Below are positions 1 through 39,493 of a DNA stretch of 39,493 bases, piece by piece. This DNA is from an uncultured Ureaplasma sp. GTDB taxonomy: Bacteria > Bacillota_I > Bacilli_A > Mycoplasmatales > Mycoplasmoidaceae. The notes beneath the pieces were generated by a model. That model saw nothing but the letters and a program-made list of their open reading frames with translations, ran no database searches and was not told where the DNA came from. Location: positions 1-39,493 of the forward strand of contig CALUPI010000010.1 in the NCBI GenBank assembly GCA_944322645.1, read 5' to 3'. Position 1 is the first letter of the stretch. Every line of letters starts with the position of its first letter. The position numbers and the translations under genes were made by a program.

Positions 1-127
1 TTAATAAATTGATAGCTTTATTTTGTCAGGTGTGATATCACACTAATATTTTAACATGATTAAAATTATTGTTATAATTTTTTATATCACAATTAAAAGT
101 GTTGCACTTGTTAATTGAATAAAGAAA
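1..127. repeat. Interspersed repeat, copy 1 (second copy at 38977-39099)
   Basis: The first 127 bases match 38977-39099 without gaps for about the first 80 bases and with a 4-base length difference near position 90-105. Both copies carry the perfect palindrome TGTGATATCACA (31-42 here) and a TATAAT at 73-78 that could be a rightward -10 element. The window opens inside or at the edge of this copy, so its true left end is unknown. It encodes no evident protein. What it is (dispersed regulatory repeat, inactive miniature element or recombination scar) is not clear. Confidence 0.85.
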
Positions 128-3393: not shown

Positions 3394-4263
3394 TTAATAT
3401 AAAAATCCAGGCATAATTATTATACCTATAATAGTCGCTAATATTGGTGCTAATATTGGTACTCATGAATAATTTCAATCTTTTTTTCAATTTAAATCTT
3501 TTTTTCTATATATAAATAAATAAGCTAATCTAGGGCCTAAATCACGTGCTGGATTTAATGCATAACCCGTGCTTCCTCCAACACCATATCCAATACCAGC
3601 TACAAGTCCACAAATTAATAATATTTTTAAAATATATTGATTTGATTTTAATAATATACTTAATCCAACAATAGAAATAAATAATATAAAAGTTCCTAAA
3701 AATTCACAAATAAAACTATTAATTTTATGCTTAGTTTGTGGTGTTGTATAAAAAGCATTTCTTATTGTTGAGTATGGCACATTTCTATCTATTAAAAATT
3801 TAAAAATATAATTAGAAAGAAATGCTCCTAAAAATGCTCCTAAAAATTCCACAAATATATATATTAAACCATTTGTTATAGGAATATATGAAGATACATT
3901 TGTATAATTAGAACCTTTAATGATATTTGCAATAACAAATCCTGGATTTAAACAAAGACTAGTTAAATTAGCAAGTGTTTCATTATCTAACTTATTTTCT
4001 AAAGCATCGAATATACCGTATTGAATACCGTATGCAGACAATAATCCACAAAATAATGCAATTGAGACACCAATTACTATTCATCCAAATGGATGTTTTA
4101 GATATGCTTTTGATCTTGGTAATGTTAAATTTAGTAATACTGAAACTAATAAAAAAATAAATATAAAAGTACCAATGAATTCTCCTAAACTTGTTATTCA
4201 TACAAATTCATTATTATTAGTAATAGTATTAGTAGGATCACCATATGCAACGTAATTATTCAT
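3394..4263 (-). CDS. glpF: Glycerol facilitator (MIP/aquaglyceroporin family)
   Basis: A 289-residue membrane channel. The second pore motif is intact at about residue 235 (GYALNPARDLGPRL); Asp after NPAR marks the glycerol-conducting branch rather than water-only aquaporins. The first motif, near residue 106, is NPGF instead of NPA(V), a substitution of the conserved Ala. Two hydrophobic halves, each with three helices, can be seen (N-half from EFIGTFIFIFLLVSV, C-half from EFLGTFILFISIVGLSIL). Several TGA codons are read as Trp. The ATG overlaps the end of the upstream hydrolase gene by 8 bases, so translation is probably coupled. Glycerol uptake feeds phospholipid synthesis and glycerol metabolism in mollicutes. 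Confidence 0.9.
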
Positions 4264-6086: not shown

Positions 6087-6694
6087 ATGAGTAAATTTAA
6101 TGAAGTTTTAGCTAGAAATATTAGTGATGTTGCAAAAGGATTATTTGATTTTTCACAATCTGTTGTTTTTTTTTTTTACACTATAATAACTTATTTGCAC
6201 AATTACCAATGATTCATTAAGTAAATTAGTGTCCAATGATATCAAGAAACAAGCATTCGATGTTTTAAACATATTGATACTATTGTAAAAAGTATTAATC
6301 ATACTTTAGATGATGTTGTTAGATTGACAATTATTACTAAGTCTACAAATGATTTTAATGTTTCTATTGATGTTTTAAATTCATTTTTTAGGGTTATAAA
6401 CCTGCATTAACTTTAATTACAGTTAAAGATATTCCATTAAATGCATCAATTTAGGTTGAGGTAGTTATTACATATGACATATATACTATTCCAAATGCAC
6501 CACAACTAGATGATTTAATTAAGTCAGTTAGAAATACAACTAATCTTCCAATAAATAATTATTCTTCATAAATTGTTGCTTTTTCACATTACAATCATTT
6601 ATCATCTCAATTACCTATTGATCCAAAAACAAATCAAATAATTAAAGGAGGATTAAAAGAAGAATTGAAACAATCTTCTTTATTTAATTGATAA
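6087..6694 (+). pseudogene. Decayed tandem RidA (YjgF/YER057c/UK114) gene
   Basis: No single frame is open, but joining frames recovers RidA-like blocks in order. First come MSKFNEVLARN and FDFSQSVV, then a 12-T tract at 6166-6177 that breaks the frame, then YNNLFAQLP, then SINHTLDDVVRLTIITKS, then GYKPALTLITVKDIPLNASI, a TAG at 6453-6455 where the family usually has Glu, and VEVVITYD. A second, shorter RidA start follows (AFSHYNHLSSQLPIDPKTN after a TAA) and ends after about 35 residues. RidA proteins deaminate reactive enamines/imines. At least three disabling lesions make this a true pseudogene and not one sequencing error. The two N-terminal-like blocks suggest the ancestor was a two-domain RidA or a tandem duplication. 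Confidence 0.8.
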
Positions 6695-6716
6695 TGCATA
6701 ATTTCTTTTGACAAAA

Positions 6717-6761
6717 AAATAACAACTACAACTATATTATATAGTGTTGCAGTTGTTATTT
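6717..6761 (-). terminator. Strong terminator of the APC permease gene
   Basis: Outer arms AAATAACAAC / GTTGTTATTT continue inward as a nearly perfect stem of about 19 bp, closed by a short loop, and are followed on the minus strand by a run of seven T. Its outer arms and a flanking segment (TTGAATGTGGGTTT) recur at 37844-37896. Confidence 0.8.
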
Positions 6762-6777
6762 GAATGTGGGTTTTTAA

Positions 6778-37758: not shown

Positions 37759-37843
37759 AATACTAATAATTTTATACTAACTAATATTAATTTTATAAAT
37801 AATTAAATAAATTACAGAATTATACTATAATTAATATTTAAAA
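37759..37843 (-). promoter_or_regulatory. Promoter region of parE
   Basis: On the minus strand the segment AATTATAGTATAATTCTG contains a good TATAAT about 60 bases before the parE ATG, inside a very A/T-rich leader. It starts right after the terminator-like hairpin at 37844-37882. A -35 at the ideal distance is not evident. Confidence 0.45.
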
Positions 37844-37896
37844 AAATAACAACCATTATAATTAATAAATAAGTTGTTATTTGAATATGGGTTTCT
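37844..37896. repeat. Terminator-like hairpin with conserved flank, second copy
   Basis: AAATAACAAC (37844-37853) and GTTGTTATTT (37873-37882) form a 10-bp stem followed on the minus strand by a T-run. It is flanked by TTGAATATGGGTTT. The same arms and flank are found in the APC permease terminator at 6717-6775. It stands as a second hairpin after that of the YbjQ-family gene. Confidence 0.6.
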
Positions 37897-37935
37897 TTAT
37901 TCAATTTAAAGTATTCCACTGGTAATTTAATAAAG

Positions 37936-37960
37936 AAACTACCAATTTTCATGGTAGTTT
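37936..37960 (-). terminator. Intrinsic terminator of the YbjQ-family gene
   Basis: AAACTACCA / TGGTAGTTT, 9 bp with a 7-base loop, begins 17 bases after the stop and is followed on the minus strand by TCTTTATT. The left arm can alternatively pair with 37891-37901. Confidence 0.65.
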
Positions 37961-38219: not shown

Positions 38220-38304
38220 ATTATTTTCTCCTTTTTAAATTATTAATATTAATAATTATATAATTTAATTTCATTAGTATAATATATTTTACAAATATAT
38301 GAAA

Positions 38305-38963
38305 ATGAAAAGAAAAAAATATTTTTAATCTTATCATTATTTACCATAAGTCTTCCTTTAATTCCAATTTTGACATCATGTAGTAGTAAAAATAATGATG
38401 ATAAACCAAATAAAATTAATATATCTATCAAAAGTAATATTTTAAATAATACTTGTTTTCAAAATGATAATGTAGAATTAGAAATAATTACTAATATAGA
38501 TAATTTAGACAATTATCAAATTAAATGACTACCCATTTCCTAATTCATCAATAGTTACCTTTCCAACAAATAAGGTTGGAGAGTTTGATATTTATGTTTC
38601 TTTAGTTCAAAATGATATTAGAATTGCCCTATCAAGTTATAAATTAATTATTAAGGAATTAGTTATACCTGAATATAACTTAGCTTATTACTACTGATAA
38701 TGGTATTGAATTGGAAAAAATTGCATATTAGCAAATTGAATTGATTGTCAAGTTTATTATTGTGAACCATATGCTTCATATCAAAAAGGTAGTAATAAAC
38801 ATTTAAATGGAATTATTAGACGATTTTATAAAAAATGATTTGATTTTTCAACACTCATAGATTCCAATATTAATGATATGCAAAACTAAATTAATCATAT
38901 GAGTAGAGAAATTTTTAATTGAAAAAGTAGTAATGATTTATATGAATATGAAAATAAAATGTA
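38305..38963 (+). pseudogene. Decayed lipoprotein gene
   Basis: Starting at ATG 38305 (MKRKK), a frame break in the A7 tract at 38313-38319 must be corrected by one A to enter a signal peptide KIFLILSLFTISLPLIPILTSCSS, which has a lipobox-like TSCS. The mature part (NDDKPNKINISIKSN...) then stops at a TAA, and another frame continues with PNSSIVTFPTNKVGEFDIYVSLVQ, an Ig/PKD-like strand pattern. More in-frame stops follow at 38699 and 38887. The original product was most likely a surface lipoprotein of about 215 residues. At least three lesions make this a pseudogene. Confidence 0.7.
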
Positions 38964-38966
38964 AAA

Positions 38967-38992
38967 AAACTACCAATTAATAAATTGATAGC
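38967..38992 (-). terminator. Hairpin at the left edge of repeat copy 2
   Basis: CTACCAATT and AATTGATAG pair best on the minus strand (with a G-U pair) and are followed there by TTTTTTT. It may end leftward transcription coming out of the repeat, or act in either direction. Confidence 0.4.
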
Positions 38993-39099
38993 TTTATTTT
39001 GTCAAATGTGATATCACACTAATATTTTAGTATGATTAGGATTCTTATTATAATTTTTATACCACAATTCAAGGTACACTTGTTAATTGAATAAAGAAA
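38977..39099. repeat. Interspersed repeat, copy 2
   Basis: This matches 1-127, including the perfect palindrome TGTGATATCACA (39007-39018) and TATAAT (39049-39054). Overall identity by eye is about 80 per cent, with a 4-base deletion. It is followed 240 bases later by the start of a rightward gene. Confidence 0.85.
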
Positions 39100-39336
39100 A
39101 TTAACAACTATTGGATAATTTTTTTATTTTATCGTCCCAAACTTTAGAATGCTTACAAACATTTTAAAAATTGTATTATAGAAATATTTTGATAATTGTT
39201 GTCTAAAACATCTAATCTATAATATAGGGATTTAATTATTTCTAGTGTTGTATTTTTTAGTCTATAATTGAGCCAGATTTTATTAACATTAGAAAATTTT
39301 GAATTTTATTCATTATTTATTAATGAGGTAATAAAT
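39100..39336. other. Intergenic region, possible decayed coding remnant on the minus strand
   Basis: No intact gene is seen. On the minus strand a stretch at about 39150-39300 stays open for some 45 codons (KIWLNYRLKNTTLEIIKSLY, then YRLDVLDNN) without a credible start, then a frame shift would lead into KHSKVWDDKIKKLSN. It could be chance in A/T-rich DNA or a fragment of an old gene. The right end must hold the promoter of the gene starting at 39337. Confidence 0.3.
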
Positions 39337-39493
39337 ATGAAAAATCAAAATAAAAAATTTAAACATGTTCTAAGTGATTATGATGTTGAGTGAGTTGAAA
39401 TTCACAATTATGATTTATCTGCTAAATTAAAAGATAAAATAAAGATAGAAAAATCAAATAATATTGCAAAAGACAAGGAATCTAAAATGGCAA
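39337..39493 (+). CDS. Hypothetical protein, N-terminal part, cut by the window edge
   Basis: ATG 39337 is preceded by GAGGT at good spacing. The visible 52 codons give a hydrophilic, Lys-rich N-terminus (MKNQNKKFKHVLSDYDVEW, with W from TGA), without a signal peptide. The frame is open to the window end. No family can be named from this fragment. Confidence 0.6.

Follow-up and report, generated by a model that had tools for sequence, protein, structure and literature searches.

The repeat and its surroundings

The window, the whole stretch of 39,493 nucleotides analyzed here, spans contig C10 in full; the draft genome to which it belongs is mollicute-like, comprises 42 contigs and 787 kb, and has genes that read through with TGA as Trp. 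A repeat lies at both of its ends: positions 1-127 and 38977-39099 align in the same orientation with 87% identity over their whole length (BLAST, E ~2e-38), and the homology put forward in the original prediction is real. Copy 1 (1-126, plus strand) closes with the boundary AATTGAATAAAGAA and is followed by a terminator hairpin (127-145), by a small membrane protein gene on the minus strand (155-379), for which no Pfam family was found, and by tex, which starts near position 481. The hairpin is situated just past the stop codon of the membrane protein gene. At the other end of the window, a broken lipoprotein-like gene (38300-38680) is fused on its 3' side to a decayed C-terminal piece of an IS30 transposase (38728-38907, plus strand; NF033563, E 7.8e-15, profile positions 207-266), which lies directly upstream of copy 2 (38977-39098, plus strand). 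The outer boundary of copy 2 is occupied by a degenerate hairpin with a T-run (39099-39126; fold of -2.1 kcal/mol). Beyond it, an open reading frame (39338-39493, plus strand) belongs to a repeated family that adjoins several relics of the element described below (here and at loci L003, L005, L009, L012 and L057); its members read MKNQN.KFKHVL.DYDVE..EIHNYDLSAKLKDKIK, with a coiled-coil tail and a weak, sub-threshold DUF16-like match. No Rfam family reached its gathering score within the window.

BLAST of the contigs identified eight long copies of the repeat in the genome (two in C10 and one each in C3, C35, C11, C9, C37 and C1) together with at least three more right ends that are partial (C33, C16 and C5). 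These right ends have the outer end (T)TAATTGAATAAAGAA or close variants of it in common, followed by unrelated flanks. The original prediction had suggested a dispersed, possibly mobile element and had named ten or more copies with sharp common ends in a genome-wide search as the observation that would support it; the search returned at least 11 right ends with one outer boundary, and this part of the proposal holds. The right boundary of the repeat is accordingly sharp and real. The left boundary at positions 1 and 38977 is not a biological one: copy 1 starts at base 1 because contig C10 begins there, inside an insertion sequence collapsed by the assembly, and other copies remain similar upstream of 38977. 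The palindrome GTGTGATATCACAC, said to be perfect and conserved, is kept in recent copies and broken in the alignment of C3, C35, C11 and one congener, while copy 2 of the window preserves its inner 12 bases. Both the palindrome and the TATAAT are parts of the element's tail.

Transposase remnants and the layout of the element

Remnants of IS30 transposases were recognized directly upstream of the repeat in C3 (NF033563, E 2e-19), copy 2 (8e-15), C35 (6e-9) and C9 (2.5e-4). A Pfam scan of the relic translations gave a weak result (rve only, E 0.003), and the NCBIfam profile NF033563 was decisive. Because the transposases of this genome are broken, their individual matches fall below the curated cut-off of the profile, while matches above it were obtained for intact relatives and for an old relic in a congener (G006), in which most of the transposase gene (NF033563 positions 43-264, E 3e-29) is followed by the same right end. 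This congener's relic shows GHWELD and TDNG, two motifs of the IS30 catalytic core, with SNEHF near the third residue; the transposases found in the genome under study are all broken.

Since the transposase gene stops just before the repeat, the latter comprises a 3' untranslated region and a right inverted repeat. We consider it almost certain that it forms the right terminus of a ~1.15-kb insertion sequence of the IS30 family and IS1630 type, a label based on features, namely the transposase family, the ends and the target duplications. The earlier descriptions as a miniature element or a regulatory module thus give way to the non-coding right end of a full-size IS30-family insertion sequence. 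Copy 1, which is 100% identical to the ends in C37 and C1, is a recent, near-identical copy whose remainder was lost at the contig break, and copy 2, whose similarity to other copies runs upstream into the transposase remnant, is an old, 5'-deleted and frameshifted relic. The contig break removed the element body from copy 1 and decay removed it from copy 2, and together these gave the repeat its free-standing appearance.

An intact element would open with a left end that contains a ribosome-binding site and an imperfect inverted repeat of 29 bp, continue with a single transposase gene (TGA as Trp) and an untranslated stretch of ~125-140 bp with a hairpin just past the gene, and close with the right inverted repeat. 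The sequence CTACCAATTAATAAATTGATAG, just past the transposase gene, is able to form a hairpin. The inverted repeats of the two ends agree at 23 of 29 positions, a terminal repeat length within the ~20-30 bp expected of the IS30 family, and in the relics of C3 and G006 a single transposase gene together with the right end fits into ~1.1 kb. There is no intact copy in the assembly, where every transposase found is broken, and we therefore infer the full length of the element and its current activity from ends, relics and relatives.

Additional traces were detected within the window. A relic left end with the first transposase codons (MHYQLNKED) lies just past a permease-like gene (6663-6770, minus strand) and scores 84, compared with a maximum of 36 in 60 shuffles. 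Upstream of gyrB, a probable degenerate left end (37842-37891, minus strand; marginal score of 27, shuffled maximum 25) is abutted by a ~47-bp fossil with inverted, right-end-like arms (37892-37938), which is followed by the hairpin CTACCAATTTTCATGGTAG. IS30 of Escherichia coli chooses hot spots or sites adjacent to its own inverted repeats (PMC9333248), and an insertion of the latter kind might explain the abutment at 37842-37938. Three fossils of 44-48 bp, each made of two inverted insertion-sequence ends with almost nothing between them, were found in the genome (37892-37938 of the window; C37 9263-9306; C8 ~3523-3570), and they may stem from repeated internal deletions or represent tiny derivatives that were mobile. 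Elsewhere in the window, resemblances to the right end were weak (scores 28-34) and no better than shuffled sequence, which scored up to 37; they were set aside.

Contig ends, target duplications and alternative readings

An identical 126-nt right end is common to the start of C10, the end of C37 and the end of C1, and an identical 126-nt left end to the start and end of C33, the end of C34 and the starts of C35 and C36. These five left ends carry AGGAGAAATTATG and the transposase-start codons MYYQLNKEERYLIDKMF, with a ribosome-binding site present. The distance from the contig extremity to the true outer boundary is exactly 126 bases at every contig end with the element (8/8), which fits the k-1 overlap of a de Bruijn assembler around a multi-copy repeat with k = 127, a value itself derived from the overlap; the element body would then be a short collapsed contig that is absent from the assembly. 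The identity of the ends at several sites points to recent movement. Fragments of IS3-like transposases were also observed at contig ends (L056 on the 3,581-base contig C29; C3 1-240; the end of C36), and in C29 genes that resemble CRISPR cas1 and cas2 come after the fragment.

Left and right ends pair through perfect target duplications of 19 bp between the start of C33 and C10 (AGCATTGATTATCAATGCT, the hairpin at 127-145 of the window), 19 bp between the end of C33 and C37 (CCTAACTGTTCTAGTTAGG) and 25 bp between the end of C34 and C1 (CTTAGTTATATATAATATAACTATG); for the left ends of C35 and C36, two of the five left-end contigs, no matching right-end contig was found. All three duplications abut the element on both sides, and each is a self-complementary inverted repeat that folds on itself. 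Long inverted-repeat duplications of variable length, here 19, 19 and 25 bp and in relatives 21-46 bp, are those of an IS1630-type element. Two genes from the start of C33, the small one and the transporter gene, directly adjoin tex in a congener (G008), where the element is missing; this gene order lends independent support to the join of C33 and C10. Copy 1 inserted recently, into the hairpin that separates the gene at 155-379 from the small gene at the C33 start, a site that is occupied here and unoccupied in the relative.

The preference for hairpins extends to the other right ends. A strong hairpin (-7.8 kcal/mol or stronger) is found immediately outside nine of 11 right ends, the weak cases being copy 2 and C11, and the 35 nt outside these 11 ends fold with a mean of -9.1 kcal/mol, versus -1.9 kcal/mol for random intergenic 35-mers of the window (Mann-Whitney p ~2e-6). 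Hairpin target choice in this genome is that published for IS1630.

The many dispersed non-coding copies, and the existence of the three end-to-end fossils, would also suit a unit of ~125 bp that stands alone and is reused at many loci, either a miniature element (MITE) or a regulatory module. A MITE would possess both terminal repeats, no transposase and a target duplication of its own; the 125-bp unit possesses the right repeat only. Moreover, this unit has a left boundary at contig ends alone, in each case exactly 126 nt in; where contigs run on, four copies are preceded by remnants of the transposase, and the target duplications flank the whole element and not the 125 bp. Given these remnants and the way in which left ends pair with right ends, we regard this explanation as very improbable and, for the 125-bp unit, as refuted.

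It is less credible still that the repeat terminates a larger element, composite or conjugative, that merely borrows IS30-like ends. In favor of this reading, the body between the 126-nt ends is unassembled at the three recent sites; against it, the recent left end carries an IS30 transposase start, the C3 and G006 relics show the gene and the right end within the ~1.1 kb given above, and the elements of relatives measure 1,164-1,227 bp. Two copies in one orientation on one contig could further be taken for a segmental duplication of an intergenic region, to which we assign a negligible probability, the lowest among the three, since at least 11 right ends share one sharp boundary at unrelated flanks, which refutes it, and the flanks of the recent copies are duplicated hairpins. 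The reading as the right terminus of an IS30-family insertion sequence is retained.

Related elements and mode of insertion

Two genomes of the same family harbor comparable elements: an IS30 element of 1,164 bp present 14 times in G051, and one of 1,227 bp present six times in G019. Target duplications of 21-46 bp, nearly all of them hairpins, were present in 18 of these 20 insertions. Like the element described here, both have hairpin target duplications, the core GTTGCACTT in their ends and a hairpin just past the transposase gene; in contrast, their outer end sequences differ, and the sequence of that hairpin, read by eye, differs from CTACCAATTAATAAATTGATAG. Amino acid identity to the C3 relic is ~32% for the G051 transposase and ~38% for that of G019, and the 74-residue piece from the window shares 61% identity with the intact G019 transposase and 41% with that of G051. 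IS30 of E. coli, which has a transposase of the same family, targets a hot-spot sequence, unlike the inverted repeats of varying sequence used here.

The closest published parallels come from other mollicute hosts. IS1630 of Mycoplasma fermentans, an IS30-family element, generates variable-length target duplications that are inverted repeats (Calcutt et al. 1999, as cited in PMC3317919), and the same article gives 27-bp inverted repeats and duplications of 16, 23, 25 and 26 bp for IS1630 in M. fermentans M64. The element studied here likewise combines an IS30 transposase, imperfect terminal inverted repeats of ~27 bp and variable-length inverted-repeat target duplications, in another host and as known only from ends and broken relics, and the two are likened by features and not by sequence. 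The same holds for ISMhom-1 of Mycoplasma hominis, described in PMC7648426 as a 1.26-kb element with an IS30 transposase, inverted repeats of 27 bp and 140 bp of non-translated 3' sequence, which resembles the present element in transposase, size, 3' non-translated region and inverted repeats, again in a different host and by features, not sequence. In each respect tested, the element agrees with IS1630 and ISMhom-1.

IS30 moves by a copy-out-paste-in route through joined ends, and the element may be expected to transpose in the same manner. It inserts into inverted repeats that closely follow genes, for the most part intrinsic terminators, and duplicates the hairpin on both sides, so that each neighbor keeps a hairpin at its end and, presumably, a functional terminator. 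The right end, read inwards, begins with TTCTTTATT and would give a new U-rich tract to the hairpin that has been separated from its own; with this U-rich supply, a working terminator could persist for both neighbors after insertion. That the element is adapted to harmless insertion beyond its choice of terminators, and that the 44-48 bp end-to-end derivatives also moved as tiny non-autonomous copies, appears to us conceivable and rather unlikely.

The element, an ordinary one viewed through a break in the assembly, is a new addition to the IS30 family and, within it, to the IS1630-type group. It accounts for eight contig ends of the assembly, its target duplications give three contig joins (C33 start to C10, C33 end to C37 and C34 end to C1), and it calls for caution, since a 126-base repeat that borders a contig may reflect assembler overlap rather than a biological unit. 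A mollicute-like lineage that has received little study thereby gains a terminator-targeting IS30 element, and targeting of hairpins, as published for IS1630, occurs in other genomes of this family as well.
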